Shown here piece by piece: positions 7,002 through 18,536 of a stretch of DNA of 32,790 nucleotides. Each line of letters starts with the position of its first letter. Position 1 is the stretch's first letter. The notes beneath the pieces are model-generated. The model saw only the letters and a list, made by a program, of their open reading frames with translations. It had not been told where the DNA came from and did not search any database. Made by a program: the position numbers and the translations under genes. The stretch comes from Acidobacteria bacterium Ga0077522. GTDB lineage: Bacteria > Acidobacteriota > Vicinamibacteria > Vicinamibacterales > Vicinamibacteraceae. The stretch spans positions 1 to 32,790 of the forward strand of contig LNDN01000123.1 in assembly GCA_001464065.1 (NCBI GenBank), in the 5' to 3' direction.

Positions 7002-7119
7002 GTCGCGCCGAGGTCGCTCCAGTAGAGAGGTCCACGCGACGCCTCACCAGCGGTCGCGTCGAACCGCAGGTGACTTCGATCACCACCCCGCTTGACGACG
7101 GCCGAGGTTCGACATAGTG

Positions 7120-7137
7120 TTCAAGCGGACGCTTGAA
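7120..7137 (+). promoter_or_regulatory. Perfect palindrome, likely ArsR-family operator
   Basis: TTCAAGCGGACGCTTGAA is a perfect 8-bp inverted repeat with a 2-base centre, 9 bases before the ATG at 7147. ArsR/SmtB dimers bind such imperfect or perfect 'TTCAA...TTGAA' type palindromes at their own promoters. A related half-like cttga follows at 7141-7145. A -35-like TTGACG at 7092 with TAGTGT at 7115 (17-bp spacing) would put the operator on the transcript start. Confidence 0.7.
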
Positions 7138-7146
7138 TACTTGACC

Positions 7147-7830
7147 ATGGCCGACGTTCCCTTCAAGCAGCTCGCCTACGAGCAGGTCGCCCGGGTGGGC
7201 AAGGCGATCGCCAGCCCGATCCGGCTCGAGATCCTCGACCTGCTCGCCCAGGCCCCCAGCACGGTGGAGCGCCTCGCGGCGGCCATCGGCCACAGCGTCG
7301 CCAACACGTCACAGCATCTGCAGGTCCTGCGCCAGTGCCGCCTCGTCACCACCGAGAAGGCAGGGACATTCGTCACCTACCGTCTCGCCGGCGACGCCGT
7401 CGGGCCGTTCCTGCTGCAGGTGCGCACGCTCGCGCACGCGCGGCTGACCGAACTCGCGCAGTTGCGCCAGGACGTCCTGGCGCGGCGTGGGGCCCTCGAA
7501 GGCGTCGACAGCAAGGCCCTCGTCGCACGGGTCAGGCGCGGCGAGGTGACGGTGATCGACGTCCGCCCGTCGCCGGAGTACGCCGCCGGCCACATCGCCG
7601 GCGCCATCTCCATCCCGCTCGCGGACCTGCGACGTCGTCTGCGGCGGCTGCCGAAGGACCGCGAGATCGTCGCCTACTGTCGTGGCCCGTACTGCGTGAT
7701 GGCCCTCGATGCCGTCACCCTGCTCCGGACGCACGGGCGGACGGCCCACCACCTCGAATACGGCGTCGCGGAATGGCAGGCCCTGGGCGGACGCGTCGTC
7801 GTCGGGGACGCCCCTGCCTCCAGCCGCTAG
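7147..7830 (+). CDS. ArsR-family regulator fused to a rhodanese domain
   Basis: 227 residues. The N-terminal half (about 10-95) is an ArsR winged helix: YEQVARVGKAIASPIRLEIL, then the recognition region SVANTSQHLQVLRQCRLV. The C-terminal half (about 118-220) is a rhodanese domain with VIDVR.SPEYAAGHIAGA and an active loop AYCRGPYCVMA, in which Cys178 is the persulfide-carrying candidate; Cys183 and Cys64 are further thiols. Known ArsR-rhodanese proteins act as repressors that respond to sulfane sulfur or related thiol stress, or use the rhodanese domain as a sensor. The ATG at 7147 is chosen over the GTG at 7117 because the palindrome 7120-7137 would otherwise be coding and because family members begin just before F.(Q)LAYEQ. 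The next gene follows after 16 bases, suggesting an operon under autoregulation. Confidence 0.88.
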   Translation: MADVPFKQLAYEQVARVGKAIASPIRLEILDLLAQAPSTVERLAAAIGHSVANTSQHLQVLRQCRLVTTEKAGTFVTYRLAGDAVGPFLLQVRTLAHARLTELAQLRQDVLARRGALEGVDSKALVARVRRGEVTVIDVRPSPEYAAGHIAGAISIPLADLRRRLRRLPKDREIVAYCRGPYCVMALDAVTLLRTHGRTAHHLEYGVAEWQALGGRVVVGDAPASSR

Positions 7831-8690: not shown

Positions 8691-9287
8691 GTGGATCGAC
8701 GGGCACACTGGGACAAGGTCTATCTCACGAAGGGTGAGCGCGACGTCAGTTGGTTCGAGGACGTGCCGGCGCGCTCGATCGAGATGCTCGAGGCGGCCGG
8801 ATTGACTCCGGCGACCTGCGTGCTGGACGTGGGCGGCGGTGAATCCCATCTCGTCGACCACTTGCTGGCGCGAGGCCTGCGCTGCCTGGCGGTGCTCGAC
8901 GTGTCGGCCGCGGCGCTCGAGCGAGCACGCGGTCGGCTGGGGCCGGCGGCGGCCGACGTGCAGTGGATCGTCGCCGATGTCGCGGGAGCGTGGGCGGCGT
9001 CGCCCGTCGACATCTGGCACGACCGCGCCGTGTTCCACTTCCTGACGACGCCGCAGGACCGGGCCCGCTATCGCGCGCACCTGATGGGCACGGCCGTCAT
9101 GGCGACGTTCGGGCCGGACGGGCCTCAGACCTGCAGCGGCCTTCCGGTGATGCGGTACTCACCCGAGTCGCTGGCGCAGGAGCTCGGCCCGGCGTTCTCT
9201 CTGGCCGAGTCACGGGCCTGGGTCCACACGACGCCGTGGGGCGCGACGCAGTCGTTCCAGTACGCCCGATTGACCCGCATCGCCTAG
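8691..9287 (+). CDS. Class I SAM-dependent methyltransferase
   Basis: 198 residues from a GTG 4 bases after the previous stop, so translation is probably coupled. It begins RRAHWDKVYLTKGERDVSWF, a usual start for small methyltransferases of this type. Motif I is VLDVGGGESHLVDHLL, motif II AVLDVSAAALERAR, motif III-like WIVADVAGAW, then DIWHDRAVFHFLT and MATFGPDGPQTCSGLPVMRYSPESL. Between RARYRAHL and GTAVMATF the usual ..LRPGG.. helix-turn appears to be missing about nine residues, which may matter for folding. Substrate unknown. The stop TAG at 9285-9287 overlaps the stop of the opposing gene in a shared CTAG. Confidence 0.85.
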   Translation: MDRRAHWDKVYLTKGERDVSWFEDVPARSIEMLEAAGLTPATCVLDVGGGESHLVDHLLARGLRCLAVLDVSAAALERARGRLGPAAADVQWIVADVAGAWAASPVDIWHDRAVFHFLTTPQDRARYRAHLMGTAVMATFGPDGPQTCSGLPVMRYSPESLAQELGPAFSLAESRAWVHTTPWGATQSFQYARLTRIA

Positions 9288-9856
9288 GCCGACAGCGCGC
9301 CACGCGCGGGCGACTGGTCGTGCCAGGCCAGCCGCCAGATCGTCTGCTGCCCATGGCGTGACCGCACCTGCACGCGACCGAGGACGACCAGCCCCCGCGC
9401 CGTGGCCAGCGTCTCGAAGCGATCCGGGCACTGACTGGTGCTGCACACGAGCCGATCGCCGCGGCGGCCTTGGAGCCGCGCCAGAAACGCCAGAATCAGA
9501 TTGGTGCCCACCCCGGCGAGAACGACGGTGGCAGGCGCCGGGGGCAGCGTCATGCGGAGGATATCGGCGCGCTCGATCCGAAACCTGCCGTGGTACCTGG
9601 GCGTGCGTTCGAGCAGGGCGGCGAGTTCGGCGACAAGGCGCGGACGCTTGTCCACGAAGACCACGGTCGCGCCCGGGTGGCGGTCCATGGCCACACAGCC
9701 GATCTGACCACCGTCGCAGCAGAGATCCCAGAGCGGCCGCGTCGGGTCGAGGCCGTCGAGCAGGGCATCGACGCGCGGCGAGCTCCGACGAGCCACGTGC
9801 CCGTCGACCGTCTCCTCATCCAGCGCCAGGCCCTGTCGTGTGCGCGTCTCGTGCAT
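9284..9856 (-). CDS. TrmK-like methyltransferase
   Basis: 190 residues. The SAM-binding motif is WDLCCDGGQIGCVAMDRHPG, then VVFVDKRPRLVAELAALLE, with a later TVVLAGVGTNLILAFLARL and a terminal strand QQTIWRLAW. The arrangement resembles the tRNA (adenine22-N1) methyltransferase TrmK/DUF633 family (DIGSDHAYLP..., VIAGMGG..., ending in YEIMVL) but the first motif is Cys-rich and the GMGG loop is GVGT. RNA modification is therefore a family-based guess. The gene has its own -10-like element overlapping the stop codon of the upstream methyltransferase gene. It ends tail-to-tail with the 8691 gene. Confidence 0.6.
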   Translation of the reverse strand: MHETRTRQGLALDEETVDGHVARRSSPRVDALLDGLDPTRPLWDLCCDGGQIGCVAMDRHPGATVVFVDKRPRLVAELAALLERTPRYHGRFRIERADILRMTLPPAPATVVLAGVGTNLILAFLARLQGRRGDRLVCSTSQCPDRFETLATARGLVVLGRVQVRSRHGQQTIWRLAWHDQSPARGALSA

Positions 9857-9868
9857 CGCCCAGCCTCG

Positions 9869-9877
9869 AGCCTATCA
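9869..9877 (-). promoter_or_regulatory. Extended -10 element made from a stop codon
   Basis: Minus-strand TGATAGGCT lies 12 bases before the ATG at 9856. Its TGA is at the same time the stop codon (9877-9875) of the upstream methyltransferase gene. Confidence 0.45.
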
Positions 9878-10648
9878 CCGTGAGGCGACCTGCCGGGGCC
9901 GGCTCGCGAGGATGTACTGGGTCGCGGGTCGCGTCCCGATGTCGTCGACGACGAAGCCCGCCGCTTCGAGGGCGGCACGCCACCGTCGCCGGTTCTGCGA
10001 CGAGCTCCAGAACCCGTGCCCGTGCAGCGCCCAGGGCATGGCCACCGCCACCCAGCCGTCGCTGTTGAGGCTCACGATCAACAGCTGTCCGCCCGGGCGC
10101 AGCACGCGTGCCGTCTCGCGCAGGGTCGCCTCGATGCCGGGCCACGGCAGGTGATCGATGGCCGCCACGCTGAACGCCGCGTCGAACCGACCCGCCGCGA
10201 AGGGCAACGTCCGCATGTCGGCGACGCTGACCTGCACGCGGGCATCGACACCAGCGGCGCGCACGTTGCGCATCAGGCGATCCGGCGAGTTGTCGTCGAT
10301 GCCGTAGTAGCCGCGATAGGCGTCGAGGGCAACGACCGTGGCCTGCGGTCTCGCGCGCAGGAACCCCACCGTGGCGCGCCCCGACCCCGCGCCGAGTTCG
10401 AGCACCTCGCCGGTCCCGGCCGGCAGGAAGGCCTCCGTCACGAGCCGCTGCGGCGAGGCGATCTGCACGGCGTAGTGCATCGCCACGGTCCCGGCCAGCC
10501 CCCACGCGGCCACGAGGCCGAAGCCGATGGTCGCCCCTCGCCGCCACCCGAGACGCCAGGCGACGATGGCCAGCACACCGCCCAGGAGGCTGACGAGTGG
10601 ATGTCCCCAGCGGAGGGGCCAGGCGTAGTCGAAGTCGTAGGTGAACAT
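9875..10648 (-). CDS. Membrane-anchored class I SAM methyltransferase
   Basis: 257 residues from the ATG at 10648 (MFTYDFDYAW); an ATG at 10660 would add MLPP. The N-terminus has two hydrophobic segments (HPLVSLLGGVLAIVAWRLGW and TIGFGLVAAWGLAGTVAMHY), so the enzyme is probably anchored to the inner membrane with its catalytic domain in the cytoplasm. Motif I is VLELGAGSGRATVGFLRARP, followed by VVALDAY, then VSVADMRTLPFAAGRFDAAF and VLRPGGQLLIVSLNSDG. Substrate unknown. The gene is divergent from the response regulator gene and shares with it the four-box operator at 10673-10711, so the two-component system may control it. No clear -10 or Shine-Dalgarno is visible. Confidence 0.8.
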   Translation of the reverse strand: MFTYDFDYAWPLRWGHPLVSLLGGVLAIVAWRLGWRRGATIGFGLVAAWGLAGTVAMHYAVQIASPQRLVTEAFLPAGTGEVLELGAGSGRATVGFLRARPQATVVALDAYRGYYGIDDNSPDRLMRNVRAAGVDARVQVSVADMRTLPFAAGRFDAAFSVAAIDHLPWPGIEATLRETARVLRPGGQLLIVSLNSDGWVAVAMPWALHGHGFWSSSQNRRRWRAALEAAGFVVDDIGTRPATQYILASRPRQVASR

Positions 10649-10672
10649 GGGCGGCAGCATGCGGCGTGCCGC

Positions 10673-10711
10673 CTGAACGCCCGCTGAAGGCGTTGTTCAG
10701 GCCCCGTTCAG
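10673..10711. promoter_or_regulatory. Four-box symmetric operator of PmrA/QseB-like type
   Basis: Half-sites CTGAAC (10673), CTGAAG (10684), GTTCAG (10695) and GTTCAG (10706) start exactly 11 bp apart. The first pair is the reverse complement orientation of the second pair, so two direct-repeat pairs face away from a centre at about 10692. OmpR-family regulators bind direct repeats at one-turn spacing (the PmrA/QseB box is CTTAA-N6-CTTAA). The right pair abuts the -35 region of the response regulator promoter and the left pair faces the methyltransferase gene. Confidence 0.7.
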
Positions 10712-10723
10712 GTCAGCTCGCGC

Positions 10724-10729
10724 TATAAC
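10724..10729 (+). promoter_or_regulatory. -10 element of the response regulator gene
   Basis: TATAAC ends 7 bases before the GTG at 10737. No good -35 hexamer; the last operator box sits where it would be, as in activator-dependent promoters. Transcription would start at or next to the GTG. Confidence 0.55.
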
Positions 10730-10736
10730 GACAGCT

Positions 10737-11420
10737 GTGCGAGTGCTGGTGGCGGAAGATGAGCGGGCGCTGGCCGATCAGCTCGACACGGCCCTCGGCC
10801 GGGCCGGCTACGCGGTGGACCGTGCGGCCGATGGTCCGTCGGCGGACCTCCTCGTGCGCACGGAGCGCTACGACGCCATCCTGCTCGACCTCGGGTTGCC
10901 CGGCGTGGACGGCCTGACGCTGCTGCGCACCTGGCGCGACGCCGGCATCGTCGTGCCGGTGCTCGTGCTGACCGCGCGCGGCAGCTGGACCGAGCGCGTG
11001 CTCGGCATCGACAGCGGGGCCGACGACTACCTCTCGAAGCCCTATCGCCTCGAGGAAGTGCTGGCGCGCGTGCGGGCCCTGATCCGCCGCGCGCACGGAC
11101 ACGCCCACCCGGAGCTGCAGTCCGGTGAGGTCAGGCTCGACCCACGCCACACGCGTGTCACCGTGCGGGGCGTCGACGTGACGCTGACGAGTCACGAGTA
11201 CCGCACCCTCGCCTGCCTGATGCATCACGCCGGCCGCGTCGTCTCGCGGCACGCGCTCGTCGAGCACATCTACGCCCAGGATCGCGACCGCGATTCCAAC
11301 ACGCTCGAGGTGTTCGTCGCCCGACTCCGTCGCAAGCTGGGCGCCTCGGTCATCGAGACGGTACGCGGCGTGGGCTACCGGATGGCTGACGCGCCTGGGT
11401 CTCCGGAGCCGGACGCGTGA
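10737..11420 (+). CDS. OmpR-family response regulator
   Basis: 227 residues. The receiver domain (1-120) has the acidic pair in VAEDER, phosphoacceptor Asp51 in ILLDLGLPGVDG, Thr79 in VLTA and Lys101 in LSKPY. The effector (about 130-220) is an OmpR/PhoB winged helix: LTSHEYRTLACLMHHAGRVV, then NTLEVFVARLRRKLGASVIE and TVRGVGYRMA. It is closest in layout to the PhoP/PmrA/QseB group. The start is a GTG with no Shine-Dalgarno and a -10 immediately upstream. The stop TGA overlaps the GTG of the kinase gene (GTGA, 11417-11420), so the pair is coupled. Autoregulation through the four-box operator is likely. Confidence 0.93.
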   Translation: MRVLVAEDERALADQLDTALGRAGYAVDRAADGPSADLLVRTERYDAILLDLGLPGVDGLTLLRTWRDAGIVVPVLVLTARGSWTERVLGIDSGADDYLSKPYRLEEVLARVRALIRRAHGHAHPELQSGEVRLDPRHTRVTVRGVDVTLTSHEYRTLACLMHHAGRVVSRHALVEHIYAQDRDRDSNTLEVFVARLRRKLGASVIETVRGVGYRMADAPGSPEPDA

Positions 11421-12429
11421 AGTCCGCGCGCTCGTTCCGATCGCAGCTGATCGCCGGCTCGCTCTTGTGGACCCTCGGCGTGATGCTGGTGGTCTCGGTG
11501 CTGCTGATCGCCCGCGGCCGCACCTCGCACTGTTGTCGTGGTTCCTGTCGATCCCCCTCACCCTCAGCCTCGTCGGCGGCCTGGGCTGTCTGGGCCTGGG
11601 CGCGCGGGTGATTTGGCGCAGCCTGCGGGCGATCGACCGGCTGCACGTCGATCTGGCAGACGTCCACGCCGGCACCACGGCACGTCTCAGCGGGACGTAT
11701 CCTGCCGAGGTCCAGCCACTGGTCACCGATCTCAACGCGCTGCTGACGGCCCGCGACGAGCGGGTGATCCGCGCCGCGGCACGAGCCGCGGACATGGCGC
11801 ACGGCCTGAAGACGCCGCTGGCGGTGCTGGCCCGCGATGCCGATCTCGTCGCCGCGCACGATCCGGCGCTGGCCGTCTCACTCGGCGCGCAGGTCTCCCG
11901 CATGGCGCGCCAGATCGACCATCACCTGTCACAGGCGCGCATGGTCGCCGCCGGTACCGCGGCCGGCCTGCGTGCACCGCTCGTCCCGGCCGTCAGTGGC
12001 CTCTTCCGGGCGCTCGAGCGGCTGCACGCCGACCGTCGGATCGCCCTGGCTCGGGACATCGCCGACGATCACGCCGTCCGGTGTGCCCCCGAAGACCTCG
12101 ACGAGATGCTCGGCAACCTGCTCGACAACGCATGCACCTGGTGTCGCAGCCGCGTGCACGTGGCGTCGACGCTCGTGGACGCGCAACTGATTGTGACGGT
12201 GGACGACGACGGGGATGGGGTGGAGGCGTCGATGGTGCCGCGGGTGCTGCAGCGCGGTGGCCGCGCCGACGAGCGGGTGCCGGGCACTGGCCTGGGCCTG
12301 GCCATCGTGCAGGACCTCGCGGAGTTGTACGGCGGCACGCTGACCCTCGAGCGATCGCCGCTGGGAGGTCTGCGCGTCCGGTTGGCGCTGCCGGCCGCCC
12401 CCGCGCCGCCCGCCGACCGCCCCGCGTGA
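11417..12429 (+). pseudogene. Sensor histidine kinase gene with a frameshift
   Basis: Cognate kinase of the 10737 regulator, PhoQ-like family with two membrane helices and almost no periplasmic loop. From the coupled GTG at 11417 the first helix reads LIAGSLLWTLGVMLVVSVLLIA. That frame runs out at 11611. The rest of the kinase is in another frame from about 11515 on: second helix LTLSLVGGLGCLGLGARVIW, then a HAMP-like linker, YPAEVQPLVTDLNALL, H-box DMAHGLKTPLAVL, N-box LDEMLGNLLDNACTWC, G1 VDDDGDGV and G2 GTGLGLAIVQDLAELYGG. The shift equals one missing base (or two extra) between about 11505 and 11540. If real, only a kinase missing helix one could be made, from an internal start; otherwise it is a sequencing or assembly error. 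The catalytic parts are all intact. Confidence 0.85.
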
Positions 12430-12456: not shown

Positions 12457-15400
12457 CTACGCCGCGCGCTCCTCGCCGACCGTACGGGGCGGCACCAGCC
12501 ACTCTTCGATGTCGGCGATGGCAATCGACGGCACGCGCTCGTGCAGCAGCAACTCGGTGGCCAGCACCTGCGGCTCGGCGTGGAAGTGCTGCTGGATGAC
12601 GTTGTCGCAGAGCACGTTGCAGACCGCGAGCAGGCTCATGCCCTGGTGATGCGCCATCCACGTCCGGACGGGGCGCGCCGTGTCGTCGCTGACGTCGACC
12701 GCCTCGTAGAGCCCGTACCGTCCCGACCAGCCGAGCGCCTCGATGCGCCGGAGGTTGCGCAGGCTGGCCTGCGGATCGATCATCAACGACAGGTACGACG
12801 AGTAGGGCGAAATCACCAGGTGCCGCCCGTTGCGCGGGTTGAGGGCGACGTCGGGCAGCCCGAACGCGGCATACCCGTACTCGTCGCTGCCGGCCGTGAC
12901 ACAGCCGGACTCGGAGATACCCCACGGCAGCTGGCGCGCGCGCGTGAAGGCCTGCTGCAGCCGCACCACCGCCGTCATGCTGTCCTGCATCAGCGTGCGT
13001 GGATAGTGACGCATCCACAGCGCCGGCATCAGGTACTCGAACATCGTCCCCGTCCATGAGGCGAGGACGCGGGTGCCACGCGACACGACGTGCGTCCGCC
13101 CGAGGTGGAACCAGCTGTCCTGCGGCACGTCGCCCTTGGCGATGGCCACGAACGCCGCGATGCGCGCCTCCGAGGCCAGCAGGTCGTACGTCGACGACTC
13201 CAGCGTGCCCGACGACGCGTCGTAGCCCACCGACAGCGTCTTCTTGCGCAGGTGGTACATGAAGGCGAAGTCCATCTCGCTCACGTACTGATCCGCCTGC
13301 GCGGCGATGGCCTCCAGGTCGACGCGCAGGGCCGGCGTCAGACCGGTCGCGCTCCAGGCGCGAGCGTGCGCCAGCCGCTCGGCCAACTCGACCGCCCACC
13401 AGGACGCGTCATCGGCGGCGTCGTTCCGGCGCGAACGCGCGACGGCGTCGGCCGCATGACGCCGCGCCAGCGCCTCCAGTTCCGGCAGCGCGCCCACCCA
13501 GTCGGCATCTCCGCGCAGCACGCGCTCGGCCAGGGCCTGCGCCCCGGGGTCGCCGGTGCCGCGCATGAGCCGCGCCAGGTCACGAATGCCGGCCCAGAGA
13601 CGCTCCTGTGGCGGGGCCTCGCGGGCGAACGCGAGGGCTGCCTGCTTCAGGGTCCAGAGGCTGGCCGCGAGATTGCCGCTGTCGACCGTCGAGGCGAACA
13701 TCGGCTCCATGGGGCGGCAGGTCTCGACGTCGGTCCAGTTGAGGACGTGACCACGCACCATCGGCAGTGCGGCCATCCCCGCGAGCGTGCGCCGCGTCTC
13801 GCGGGCGAACTCGGTCACGGTCAGCTGCCCCAGGTGGACGGCCGCCACCCGCGCGTTGAACAGGAAGCCGAGGTTGGTCGGCGACAGGCGCTCGGCCGCC
13901 GCGCCCCCCTCGTGCACGTGATCCGGAATCAGCCAGTGACGCGACTCGGTGCTCAGCTCGCTGAAGTAGCGCCACATCCGCCACGCCTGCATGCGCAGCC
14001 ACCGCTCGTCGTCTGGCGACACGGCGCCGACGCCGGAGCGTGGTGCTCGACTGAGCCAGGCCGCGAGCGGACGCGCGACCATCCAGAGCGCCAGGATCGG
14101 CGCGGCCGGCAGCAGGGCCTGCGGCCGCAGCAGCGCGAGGCCGCCCAGCAGCAGGAGCGCCAGGGCCGGTGACCAGTCGAGATAGACGTCCGCGGGGCGC
14201 TTGGGTCCACGCGTCTGGCGCGTCTCGGCCGCCGTCTCCCACTCGAGCAGGCGCTGCTTCGTGATGAACACCCGCGAGAGCGAGCGGACGACCGCGTCGA
14301 CGGCCAGCAGCGCGTCGTGCAGCAGGTAGGTCAGGCCGAGCACCATCAGCAGGTGCTGGCGCGCGAAGGCCCGCGCGGTGTCGACCAGCCAGCGGACGAA
14401 CCCACGGCGTCCCCAGGGGGCGCGCACGACGGCCACCGCGAGGCCCGCGTAGATCGGGAGGAGCAGCATCGCCACGCCGAGCATCGTCCACATCACCGCA
14501 CGGTCGGGCCACAGGACCCATCCGGCCAGCAGCAGCAGCAGCGAGGCGGGTTCGAGCAGGCTGCGGCGCAGGTTGTCGAGGATCTTCCAGCGCGCGAGCG
14601 CATCGAAGTGGCTCGGCACGGTGCGGCCGAGCCCATCCGGCACGCGTGGCAGCAACCACCGCAGGATCTGCCAGTCGCCACGCATCCAGCGGTGCTTGCG
14701 GCGGCTGTAGGCGCTGAAGTGCGTCGGGTAGTCGTCGATCAACTCGATGTCCGAGACGAGGCCGGCGCGCGCCACGATCCCTTCGATCAGATCGTGACTG
14801 AGCAGCGCGTTCTCGGGGAACCGACGCTCGAGCACGGCGTGGAAGGCATCGACGTCGTAGATGCCCTTGCCCGTGAAGCTGCCTTCCCCGAACAGGTCCT
14901 GGTAGGGATCGGAGACGGCGCGGGTGTAGGTGTCGATCCCGGTCTGTCCCGACAGGAGCCGGGCCAGCCAGCTGCGCGAGGCCGACTGCGTACTGATGCC
15001 GATGCGCGGCTGCAGGATGCCGTAGCCCTCGACCACCCGCTGTGTCGCCGGATCGATGACCGCGCGATTGAGCGGATGCGCGAGCGCGCCGACGAGACGA
15101 TGGGCCGAATCGCGGGGCAACTGCGTATCGCTGTCGAGCGTGATGACGTAGCGGATGCTGCCGAGCCCCTCGCGGTTGCCGACCTTGACCGGGAAGCTGT
15201 CGAAGCCGCCACGCAGCAGCCGGTTGAGATCGAGCAACTTGCCGCGCTTGCGCTCCCACCCCATCCAGCGTCCCTCGGCCGCGTTGTAGACGCGATGGCG
15301 ATGCAGGAGGTAGAAGGGGGTCTTTCCCGTCGAGCCGTAGCGCGCGTTCAGCCCCTCGACCAGCGACACGGCGAGCGGCACCAGGGGTTCGTGGGCCGCC

Positions 15401-16692
15401 GTCGCCTGATCGCCGGCGTCCACCGAGTCGGTCACCAGCGCGAAGTGGAGATGGGGATCGCGATTGGCCAGATAGCGAATCTCGAGATCCATGACCAGTT
15501 CGTGGACGTGCTGCTCGTCGAGGAGCAGCGCCGGCACGGCGACCATCGTCCGCGCCTCGGCGGGAATGCCCTTCGAGAAGTCGAGCTTGGGCAGCACCGT
15601 GGGACGCGTCGCGACAGGCACCAGCGCGTTGACGAGTTCGACGGCCGCCTGGGTCGCGGGTAGCAGCAACAACAGGAAGGCCACCCAGACGGGCGCCGGC
15701 AGGTCGACGCTGCCGACAATCGCCAGCACGATGGTCAGCGTCCCGAGCCCGATGCCCCCGAGGTACGCCGCGGCGGGTCGTGCGGTGATGGCGCGCGCCA
15801 GGCGGTGCCGCCACGGCGCGCGGAGGCCGACGAGCGACTCCAGCGCCGGCAGCCCCTCGCCCACGAGGTAGTAGCCGACGTGCATGCGGCGCGCGGCGAG
15901 TCCGTCGGCGCCGGAGGAGTACGCCTCCGCGACGTCGTCTGCCATGCAGATGGCGGCTTCGGCCACTTCCCGCTCGCTCGCACGGCTGTGCCGCGCGATG
16001 TAGGAGATGGCGTGCCGGTAGGCGTCGCGGCTGCTGTCGTCCATCGACGCGTACGCGCCGGCGGGATCGGCTCGCAACACGAGGTCGACGACGCTCGAAG
16101 CGGCGAAGAGACGCGTCCAGTTGGCGTCGGCGACGTGGCGAATGCCGTCGATGGCCGACGACAGGCGCACCTCGTCCTCGGACGAGGCGCCCGAGACGAC
16201 GCGGTCCAGGAGGGCGAGCATGAGCGCGCCGCGGGCCACACCACGAACGAAGGCCCCGAAGCTCGCCTCGTCGAAGCACACGCGGTGGGCATCGTCGAGA
16301 TACGCCGCGGCGATGGCCGCCACGCGCGTCTGCTCGCCCTGGCCCGTCGCGATCGACAGGTACTCGTGGGAGTTCCACAGGAAGTCGCGTGCCTCGCTCT
16401 CGGCAGACGCCAGCAGCCGCGCGTTGTCGGTCAGCCACGCGCGCACCACGGGCGACGCGTACTCGCGCGCCATGGCCTCGGTGAGCGCCGTGCGCAGACG
16501 GGCCGCGCGCCGACGAATCTGCCGCACGCTGGCGTGCCCCCGCCGCGCCTGAGGCAGCGCGATGGCCGCCATCCACCCGGCATACCGGGTGACCTGCAGG
16601 TCCTCGCACGGGTCGTCCGCGTCGGGAGCGCGGTCGAGGCCGCCGTGACGAGCGGGAGGACGTGGGTCGAAGGCCGACAGGGGCATGTGCAT
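12457..16692 (-). CDS. NdvB-like cyclic glucan synthase, short form without GH94
   Basis: 1411 residues, a membrane glycosyltransferase plus a glycoamylase-like domain. An N-terminal helical region reaches about 290; membrane helices lie near 310-350, 725-800 and 840-880. The transferase core (about 380-700) has VPALLLDEQHVHELV, the metal-binding TLDSDTQLP near 516, LLSHDLIEG near 631 and HRWMRGDWQ near 671, as in the GT84 domain of cyclic beta-1,2-glucan synthase. The remainder has the signatures SPTNLGFLFNARVAA, FASTVDSGNLAASLWTLKQA, and the glycoamylase block WTGTMFEYLMPALWM, WGISESG, SPYSSYLSL and MAHHQGMSLLA. The protein stops there, whereas NdvB (about 2800 residues) continues into GH94. 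Start: ATG 16692, with 16686 also possible; neither has a strong Shine-Dalgarno. It follows the ABC exporter gene by 23 bases. Confidence 0.85.
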   Translation of the reverse strand: MHMPLSAFDPRPPARHGGLDRAPDADDPCEDLQVTRYAGWMAAIALPQARRGHASVRQIRRRAARLRTALTEAMAREYASPVVRAWLTDNARLLASAESEARDFLWNSHEYLSIATGQGEQTRVAAIAAAYLDDAHRVCFDEASFGAFVRGVARGALMLALLDRVVSGASSEDEVRLSSAIDGIRHVADANWTRLFAASSVVDLVLRADPAGAYASMDDSSRDAYRHAISYIARHSRASEREVAEAAICMADDVAEAYSSGADGLAARRMHVGYYLVGEGLPALESLVGLRAPWRHRLARAITARPAAAYLGGIGLGTLTIVLAIVGSVDLPAPVWVAFLLLLLPATQAAVELVNALVPVATRPTVLPKLDFSKGIPAEARTMVAVPALLLDEQHVHELVMDLEIRYLANRDPHLHFALVTDSVDAGDQATAAHEPLVPLAVSLVEGLNARYGSTGKTPFYLLHRHRVYNAAEGRWMGWERKRGKLLDLNRLLRGGFDSFPVKVGNREGLGSIRYVITLDSDTQLPRDSAHRLVGALAHPLNRAVIDPATQRVVEGYGILQPRIGISTQSASRSWLARLLSGQTGIDTYTRAVSDPYQDLFGEGSFTGKGIYDVDAFHAVLERRFPENALLSHDLIEGIVARAGLVSDIELIDDYPTHFSAYSRRKHRWMRGDWQILRWLLPRVPDGLGRTVPSHFDALARWKILDNLRRSLLEPASLLLLLAGWVLWPDRAVMWTMLGVAMLLLPIYAGLAVAVVRAPWGRRGFVRWLVDTARAFARQHLLMVLGLTYLLHDALLAVDAVVRSLSRVFITKQRLLEWETAAETRQTRGPKRPADVYLDWSPALALLLLGGLALLRPQALLPAAPILALWMVARPLAAWLSRAPRSGVGAVSPDDERWLRMQAWRMWRYFSELSTESRHWLIPDHVHEGGAAAERLSPTNLGFLFNARVAAVHLGQLTVTEFARETRRTLAGMAALPMVRGHVLNWTDVETCRPMEPMFASTVDSGNLAASLWTLKQAALAFAREAPPQERLWAGIRDLARLMRGTGDPGAQALAERVLRGDADWVGALPELEALARRHAADAVARSRRNDAADDASWWAVELAERLAHARAWSATGLTPALRVDLEAIAAQADQYVSEMDFAFMYHLRKKTLSVGYDASSGTLESSTYDLLASEARIAAFVAIAKGDVPQDSWFHLGRTHVVSRGTRVLASWTGTMFEYLMPALWMRHYPRTLMQDSMTAVVRLQQAFTRARQLPWGISESGCVTAGSDEYGYAAFGLPDVALNPRNGRHLVISPYSSYLSLMIDPQASLRNLRRIEALGWSGRYGLYEAVDVSDDTARPVRTWMAHHQGMSLLAVCNVLCDNVIQQHFHAEPQVLATELLLHERVPSIAIADIEEWLVPPRTVGEERAA

Positions 16693-16715
16693 GGGTGTGA
16701 TGGGTTCCGGAAGGT

Positions 16716-18536
16716 TCAGCGGTAGCTGGCGGCCTGCAGCTCGAACATGCGGGCATAGCGCCCGCCCTGGGAGATCAGGCTGTCGTGGTGACCGTCTTCG
16801 GTGATGCGTCCGTCGGACAACACGACGATGCGATCGGCCATGCGCACGGTCGAGAAGCGGTGGGAGATGAGGAGGGCCATCTTGCCCGCCGTCAGCTCGG
16901 CGAAGCGCTCGAAGACCTCGAGTTCGGCGCGCGCGTCGAGGGCCGCCGTCGGCTCGTCGAGGATGAGCAGCTGGGCGTCGCGCAGGTACGCCCGCGCCAG
17001 CGCGACCTTCTGCCACTCGCCGCCCGAGAGGTCGACGCCGCCTTCGAAGCGGCGGCCGAGCAGCTGGTCGTAACCGCCGGGCAGCCGCGTGATGACGTCG
17101 TGCGCGAGGCTGCGCCCCGCGGCCTTGCGAATGCGCCACTCGTCATCGCCAGCCTCGAGTCGACCGACGGCGACGTTCTGCCGGGCCGTCATCTCGTAGC
17201 GGACGAAGTCCTGGAAGATGACGCCGATCTCGCGGTGCAGGTCCTCGATGTCGTAGTCGCGCAGGTCGACGCCATCGAGCAGCACGCGGCCGGCAGTCGG
17301 GTCGTACAGCCGCGTGATCAGCTTGACCAGCGTGGTCTTGCCCTGGCCGTTCTCGCCGACCAGCGCGATGCGCTCACCGCGCGAGATGCGGAAGTCGAGG
17401 CGGTCCAGCACGGGACGGGCGTTGCCCGGGTAATGGAACGACACATCCTCGAAGTGGAAACCGTCGCGGATCGGCCGCGGCGCCGGGATGGCGTGCGCCG
17501 AAGCGGCGAGCGTCGGCTTCACCTTCAGGAACTCGACCAGATCGGTGAGGAACAGCGACTGGTCGGCGATGTTGGAGAAGGTCGAGAAGATCGACTGGAT
17601 GTTGGCGCTGGCGCCGGCGATGCTGCCGGCGATGAACTGGAGCGAGCCCCACGACAGGTCGCCGGTCACCGTGCGATAGATCACGTAGCCATACGCCGAG
17701 TAGTAGCTGGTCGTGCTGATCACCGAGAGCAGACTGCCGCCCAGCAGTCGGCGCCGCGCCAGCGCGACGTTCTGCGTGTAGAGGTCGTCGGACAGCTGCG
17801 CGTACTCGCGCGTGATGTAGCCAGCCAGGCCGAACAGCTTCAGCTCCTTGGCGGTCTCCTTGCTCGCGCCGAGCACGCGGAGGTAGTCGAGCTGGCGCCG
17901 CATCGGTGTCTGCCGCACGTTGAGCGCGTAGCCGAGGAACGCGAAGTGGCTCTCGCCGAGGAACGCCGGCACCACGGCCAGGACGAGCACTCCGAGCAGC
18001 CACGGCGAGAAATGCAGGACGCTGAGCGAGAGGCTGACCGCGATGATCAGCTGCTGCGCGATGGCCCCGATGGCGTGGATCATCGTGATCCGGTCGGTGG
18101 CCTGGGCGCGGGCACGCTCCAGCAGGTCGTGGAAGGCCGGACTCTCGTAGGCCGTGAGGTCGAGGCGCGACGCGTGCTCCATCACACGCACGCTCACGTG
18201 CCGTGTGAAGCGGTCGGCGAGCAGGCCGTCGAAGAAGCCCGTGGCGCGACCGAGCACGCCACCGAGGATGGCCAGGCCGCCCTCGGCCGCCACCCACCAC
18301 CAGAAGTGGTCCGGCAGGGTGCCCCCGCCCGTCCTGATCTGGACGGCGTCGAGGATCCACTTGCCCACCGACAACATGGCCAGCGGAATCAGCGCAGCCG
18401 TGATCCGGAAGGCCCACCCCGCGGCAACCACACCGGGGGCGGACTCCCACACCATGCGCATCAGTGCCGGGACGTTGCGGAGTGCGGCAGCGCGTTCGCG
18501 CCAGCCATGCCAGAAACGAGGAGTCTGCTCAGCCAT
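16716..18536 (-). CDS. ABC exporter, fused membrane and ATP-binding domains
   Basis: 606 residues from the ATG at 18536; a GTG at 18563 would add nine residues. The first half has about six membrane segments (e.g. GWAFRITAALIPLAMLSVG, LIIAVSLSLSVLHFSPWLLG, YGYVIYRTVTGDLSWGSLQF). The second half is the nucleotide-binding domain: Walker A GENGQGKTT with Lys400, LSGGEWQK signature near 502, Walker B LLILDEPTAALDARAE near 525, and H-loop ISHRFSTVRMADRIVVL near 557. It works as a homodimer in the inner membrane, exporting lipids, glycans or peptides. The downstream NdvB-like gene makes a glucan exporter of the NdvA kind a fair guess, though the sequence alone does not show the substrate. The two genes probably form one operon. 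No promoter could be located upstream. Confidence 0.9.
   Translation of the reverse strand: MAEQTPRFWHGWRERAAALRNVPALMRMVWESAPGVVAAGWAFRITAALIPLAMLSVGKWILDAVQIRTGGGTLPDHFWWWVAAEGGLAILGGVLGRATGFFDGLLADRFTRHVSVRVMEHASRLDLTAYESPAFHDLLERARAQATDRITMIHAIGAIAQQLIIAVSLSLSVLHFSPWLLGVLVLAVVPAFLGESHFAFLGYALNVRQTPMRRQLDYLRVLGASKETAKELKLFGLAGYITREYAQLSDDLYTQNVALARRRLLGGSLLSVISTTSYYSAYGYVIYRTVTGDLSWGSLQFIAGSIAGASANIQSIFSTFSNIADQSLFLTDLVEFLKVKPTLAASAHAIPAPRPIRDGFHFEDVSFHYPGNARPVLDRLDFRISRGERIALVGENGQGKTTLVKLITRLYDPTAGRVLLDGVDLRDYDIEDLHREIGVIFQDFVRYEMTARQNVAVGRLEAGDDEWRIRKAAGRSLAHDVITRLPGGYDQLLGRRFEGGVDLSGGEWQKVALARAYLRDAQLLILDEPTAALDARAELEVFERFAELTAGKMALLISHRFSTVRMADRIVVLSDGRITEDGHHDSLISQGGRYARMFELQAASYR

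Follow-up and report, generated by a model that had tools for sequence, protein, structure and literature searches.

PmrA/BasR and QseB recognise sites built on the word CTTAA-N6-CTTAA, and the PHO box of Streptomyces, with GTTCACC in 11-nt direct repeats, uses nearly the same word as the array that is the subject of this study. In Salmonella, the PhoP box (T/G)GTTTA-N5-(T/G)GTTTA lies, in architecture I, ~12 nt before the -10 element, where it replaces the -35 element, and reversed PhoP boxes function only at 27, 37 or 48 nt (PMC3335776). The BqsR site of Pseudomonas is TTAAG-N6-TTAAG (PMC4682146). Inverted arrangements have also been described: the AgrR box of Cupriavidus has an inverted ATKACA-N4-TGTMAT core with a 10-bp step and optional, imperfect extra half-sites (PMC7380067), and the CusR palindrome is located between cusRS and the divergent cus/pco operon (PMC11195947). 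In addition, Meyer et al. postulated a divergent promoter between the Orf1-RR-SK1 and SHP-DHC-cytochrome b operons, with no DNA site given for the Orf1/RR/SK1 promoter in the available part of that article (PMC2909971).

In the open-access literature that we searched, we found no description of a four-box array with TTCA as its core word, and the papers on V. cholerae VC1638/39 and Pseudomonas BqsS hold no TTCA motif. Queries for TTCAG-N6-TTCAG and its variants returned no relevant paper from the open-access literature, which is weak evidence of absence, and the same literature yielded nothing on OmpR-family operators made of bidirectional direct repeats. Here, we analyse by computation an array of this kind in a window of 32,790 nucleotides (the whole stretch of DNA under study) from an acidobacterial genome. 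We read it as an operator to which the adjacent response regulator, of the OmpR family, would bind as two dimers and bring about class II activation of both flanking promoters, a reading to which we give a probability of roughly 0.8.

Results

The four-box array and its neighbours

The array spans 39 bases, with its left pair of boxes inverted with respect to the right pair. The boxes are CTGAAC (10673-10678), CTGAAG (10684-10689), GTTCAG (10695-10700) and GTTCAG (10706-10711), and direct reading of the sequence confirmed both the starts (10673, 10684, 10695 and 10706) and the exact 11-bp steps reported in an earlier, sequence-only reading of this DNA. The array and its neighbours are as follows.

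10673..10711, no strand assigned: predicted symmetric four-box operator, two opposite direct-repeat pairs with 11-bp steps throughout
10673..10689, minus strand: left direct-repeat pair, CTTCAG-N5-GTTCAG on that strand, predicted to serve the methyltransferase promoter
10695..10711, plus strand: right direct-repeat pair, GTTCAG-N5-GTTCAG, predicted to serve the response-regulator promoter
10737..11420, plus strand: OmpR/PhoB-family response regulator (receiver and Trans_reg_C), GTG start
11400..12429, plus strand: PhoQ-like histidine kinase, start approximate, frame shifted once near 11500
9875..10648, minus strand: class I methyltransferase with two N-terminal hydrophobic stretches (MFTYDFDYAWPL...), ATG start
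9284..9856, minus strand: second methyltransferase-fold ORF (Methyltransf_18, weak, at the cut-off)

Dinucleotide shuffles of the window gave an expectation of 0.00 for CTGAAS-N5-CTGAAS, against 2 occurrences observed, both of them in the array. Across the 5.4-Mb assembly this strict pair is again confined to the array (the reversed control gave 2 matches), and the core TGAA-N7-TGAA-N7-TTCA-N7-TTCA occurs once, the next best sites having 3 mismatches. The genome-wide motif search that had been proposed for defining a regulon thus returned the array at its own locus, while no regulon beyond the local operon was found in this assembly.

With the response regulator as query, we fetched 80 relatives, 73 of which were testable; a genome search supplied the same-genus orthologue L004, which has 80% identity. 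The scan of related genomes that the sequence-only reading had called for came out in its favour: boxes are kept upstream of orthologous regulators in 47 of the 73, an unevenly sampled set in which some rows are near-copies, at most 950 bp before the regulator or its operon. Over the 16 core bases, 35 of these 47 carriers match exactly, 11 have one mismatch and 1 has two, and the carriers include Acidobacteriota, Rokubacteria and alpha-, beta- and gamma-proteobacteria. The spacing 11-11-11 was found at 46 loci, while each of eleven altered spacings gave 0 or 1, and shuffled loci gave no array in 300 kb, even with 3 mismatches allowed. Whole-genome scans found the array in 15 of 396 Acidobacteriota genomes and in 30 of 151 genomes of one beta-proteobacterial family, with 0 for the reversed control in each. 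In the Acidobacteriota loci that share the layout of the window (L004, L024, L039 and L043) the four boxes lie directly upstream of the regulator; in proteobacteria the array mostly lies ~400-550 bp upstream of it, in front of the first gene of the operon, which encodes a PepSY protein.

The divergent gene is variable. It encodes a membrane-anchored methyltransferase in the window and in L004, L024, L039 and L043, a MacB/LolD-type ABC ATPase or MacB-type permease in L023, L103, L105, L106, L108 and L109, and, among beta-proteobacteria, a cytochrome c of the DUF1924 (SHP-like) type, a PepSY_2 protein or a protein resembling ferric reductases. The methyltransferase is therefore only a lineage-specific partner, and this variation indicates that the operator belongs to the regulator and recruits targets lineage by lineage. 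In the window, the second methyltransferase-fold ORF begins 18 bp downstream of the first, and the two probably share one operon.

The kinase scores best against PhoQ. Compared with L004, its frame (11400-11560) contains a single shift near 11500, and in the orthologues it is intact; the shift may be an assembly error. The Acidobacteriota orthologues carry two transmembrane helices and hardly any periplasmic domain, so that sensing of the signal probably takes place within the membrane or by way of a partner protein. Convergent to the kinase lies a very long minus-strand ORF (12457-17139) that by eye resembles an NdvB-type cyclic beta-glucan synthase; no array adjoins it. In rhizobia, the related FeuP/FeuQ system governs cyclic glucan export. 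Elsewhere in the window, a plus-strand ORF (7117-7827) joins an ArsR-type HTH to a rhodanese domain.

Other Acidobacteriota also have four-box arrays, built of TGAAG-type words or close variants, beside unrelated genes and mostly in the gap between a divergent pair (L104, L111, L114 and L117, at 1500-1538 in each). These may be the sites of a paralogous regulator whose operators are built in the same way, and as possible paralogous systems they were excluded from the array alignment.

The array as a unit

We searched 639 kb for a single direct-repeat pair accompanied by a -10 element, without assuming a partner pair. This yielded 63 promoter-linked half-sites (two-sided arrays enter once per side), and none in shuffled sequence. 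The earlier description of two back-to-back direct-repeat sites holds as to the two opposite pairs, and proves too weak as to their relationship, since 61 of the 63 half-sites have the inverted partner pair and 2 have none. Half-operators are thus almost never found alone, even where there is no divergent gene, which makes the four-box array the unit. Furthermore, seven second arrays (L025, L026, L027, L029, L036, L042 and L045) retain both pairs where the far side is occupied by the end (3') of an upstream gene and has no -10 element; in those that were traced, the upstream gene encodes a cytochrome ending in ..GFYED or ..GYYDE. The inverted half must then be needed for something beyond serving a second promoter, and cooperative binding of two dimers would be the simplest reading of its retention.

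Second arrays lie ~1 kb from the first in L025 (890-928), L026 (2497-2535), L036 (2482-2520), L042 (1001-1039) and L045 (2453-2491), upstream of PepSY_2 or ferric-reductase-like genes and with one promoter side only.

The arrangement might instead consist of two independent PmrA/PhoP-like sites placed back to back, one for each divergent promoter and with no functional contact between them, as each pair has its own -10 element at the right distance and most arrays lie between divergent genes. We consider this unlikely, because the inter-pair step is always exactly 11 bp and the partner pair persists in the seven second arrays and is missing so rarely from promoter-linked half-sites.

Promoters and start codons

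Alignment of 63 arrays revealed, on either side, a hexamer that resembles a -10 element and stands at offset 11 from the outer box, reading TATAAa/c on the right and CANARt-like on the left, where A at position 2 and T at position 6 are each present in 60 of the 63. Since no other column stands out among the aligned arrays, neither promoter shows a -35 element of its own, and the outer box takes its place. In the window, the corresponding elements are as follows.

10724..10729, plus strand: predicted -10 TATAAC of the response-regulator promoter, 12 bp from the outer box
10656..10661, minus strand: predicted -10 CATGCT of the methyltransferase promoter, 11 bp from the outer box, weak, identical in L004

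The presence of candidate -10 elements on both sides supports what had been claimed from the sequence, namely autoregulation together with control of the divergent gene, and the position of the array fits that of a class II activator at the -35 region. A repressor could use the same place, as the outer boxes cover the -35 region of both promoters, and bound regulator would then block the two overlapping promoters and impose negative autoregulation. Against this, the sequence outside the boxes shows no -35 consensus, the -10 elements stand at the fixed class II activator distance known from PhoP boxes, and related regulators activate from the same geometry; repression is accordingly an improbable use of the array. 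We also considered the distal pair as a reversed upstream PhoP box, an idea that was not adopted because its distance to the far -10 is ~33-34 nt, rather than 27, 37 or 48 nt.

The start codons GTG 10737 and ATG 10648 each lie exactly 7 nt after the respective -10 element. The five Acidobacteriota loci of the methyltransferase type share this -10-to-start distance, at most 1 nt off on nearly all sides, and in several further arrays from Acidobacteriota a start codon follows the -10 at 5-8 nt, on one side or on both. The two start codons of the window are fixed by homology, through RVL/RIL in the regulators and SLDF/TYDF near the methyltransferase start. As transcription normally starts ~7 nt past the -10 element, both mRNAs of the window are probably leaderless. 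An alternative methyltransferase start, ATG 10660, lies inside the predicted -10 and was rejected on the basis of this homology, ATG 10648 being the most likely start.

The response regulator and its recognition helix

The response regulator belongs to the OmpR/PhoB family (Pfam Response_reg 2.9e-23 and Trans_reg_C 1.8e-23, both above the cut-off), and its nearest solved relative is BasR/PmrA. It falls below the NCBIfam cut-offs for PmrA (NF007928, 219.6 vs 330 bits), QseB (NF007663, 206.5 vs 345 bits) and PhoP (NF008078, 183.8 vs 336 bits), and would thus work like these regulators and yet be filed as none of them.

All 47 array carriers share the recognition-helix signature RDSNTxEVFxxRLR, with E/D and F/V allowed at two positions. 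Taking the adjacent regulator to be the regulator of each array, the array accompanies 47 of the 51 regulators that have the signature and 0 of the 22 that lack it. Two of the four signature regulators without a nearby array (L051 and L055) have one ~2 kb upstream, and in Castellaniella L050 and L064, which have the full signature, no array was present in the stretch examined. On a maximum-likelihood tree, array presence requires 7 changes, as compared with 23.5 for shuffled labels, so that it is a subfamily trait, array and helix signature having been inherited in one clade; the Fisher value of 6e-15 takes no account of this ancestry, overstates independence and is not a count of independent events.

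Binding of the boxes by the adjacent regulator is what these patterns suggest, and another DNA-binding protein might in principle read them instead. This we judge very unlikely, given that the array comes and goes with the recognition helix of the adjacent regulator, that the one array in the genome adjoins the response regulator, and that its geometry is of the OmpR-family type. Finally, chance or base composition is excluded as the source of the array, with a negligible residual probability, since shuffles and reversed-pattern controls over 547 genomes gave 0 matches, against dozens of real ones.

Discussion

Taken together, these data suggest a model in which the adjacent response regulator uses the 39-bp array as its operator, and two of its dimers, probably in phosphorylated form, would occupy the opposite-facing direct repeats. 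Each dimer would substitute for the missing -35 element in the manner of a class II activator like PhoP or PmrA, the activated -10 element lying ~11-12 bp beyond its outer box. A single operator could in this way drive two divergent promoters, one for the regulator/kinase operon, giving positive autoregulation, and one for a divergent target operon, here that of the membrane-anchored methyltransferase, and in the Acidobacteriota lineage both mRNAs would probably begin at the start codon. As the inverted pair is retained where there is one promoter only, the two dimers probably act as a single unit and bind cooperatively.

The odds seem about even that this amounts to an undescribed class of OmpR-family operator, in which a four-box array is obligatory, two dimers must bind together, the two divergent promoters lack a -35 element and, in Acidobacteriota, both transcripts are leaderless. 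Such a class would extend over at least three phyla and would provide the DNA site that has been missing for regulators of operons that encode SHP cytochromes, PepSY proteins, ABC exporters and methyltransferases. With 16 fixed bases over 37 bp and zero background in the controls, the array is a highly specific DNA signature that crosses phyla and marks a widespread and little-studied two-component subfamily, and it allows the targets of these regulators, including SHP cytochromes and PepSY proteins, to be read from genomes. It also raises the question of why an operator with one promoter should retain an inverted second dimer site.

When compared with known systems, the array appears to combine a known geometry, that of PmrA/PhoP/BqsR-type sites (direct repeats, an 11-bp step and ~12 nt to the -10), with two features that we did not find in the literature searched: the TTCA core word and the obligatory symmetric arrangement. 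With the PhoP box it shares the hexamer direct repeat, the 5-nt spacer, the distance of ~12 nt to the -10 and the replacement of the -35. The core is GTTCA in the array and GTTTA in the PhoP box, one base apart, and in the right-hand boxes 62-63 of the 63 arrays have C as the fourth letter of the word; moreover, PhoP boxes are single or variously placed, whereas the array is an obligatory inverted double. The BqsR, PmrA and QseB sites consist of pentamer repeats with the same 11-bp period and have a promoter-proximal repeat that overlaps the -35. Their core is TTAA, as opposed to TTCA in all the aligned arrays, so that the sequence-only reading was right to set the array apart from CTTAA-N6-CTTAA, and BqsR clusters are head-to-tail arrays, in contrast to the symmetric pair of pairs seen here.

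The beta-proteobacterial carriers match the layout of Meyer et al., having a PepSY (Orf1)-RR-HK operon divergent from a DUF1924 (SHP-like) cytochrome. The window differs from that group: neither Orf1/PepSY, which the beta-proteobacterial relatives do have, nor SHP stands beside its regulator, and its kinase is sensor-less. AgrR, also of the OmpR family, resembles our system in combining inverted with in-phase direct repeats, in its class II position, in positive autoregulation and in having its target in a divergent intergenic region (the last two being predictions on the side of the array), but its box lacks two full direct-repeat sites. CusR, as is predicted for the regulator studied here, uses one symmetric operator for a two-component operon and a divergent target and has a very narrow regulon; its operator, however, is a simple palindrome with one inverted repeat, a different word and metal-efflux targets, whereas the unit described here consists of two direct-repeat pairs in inverted order.
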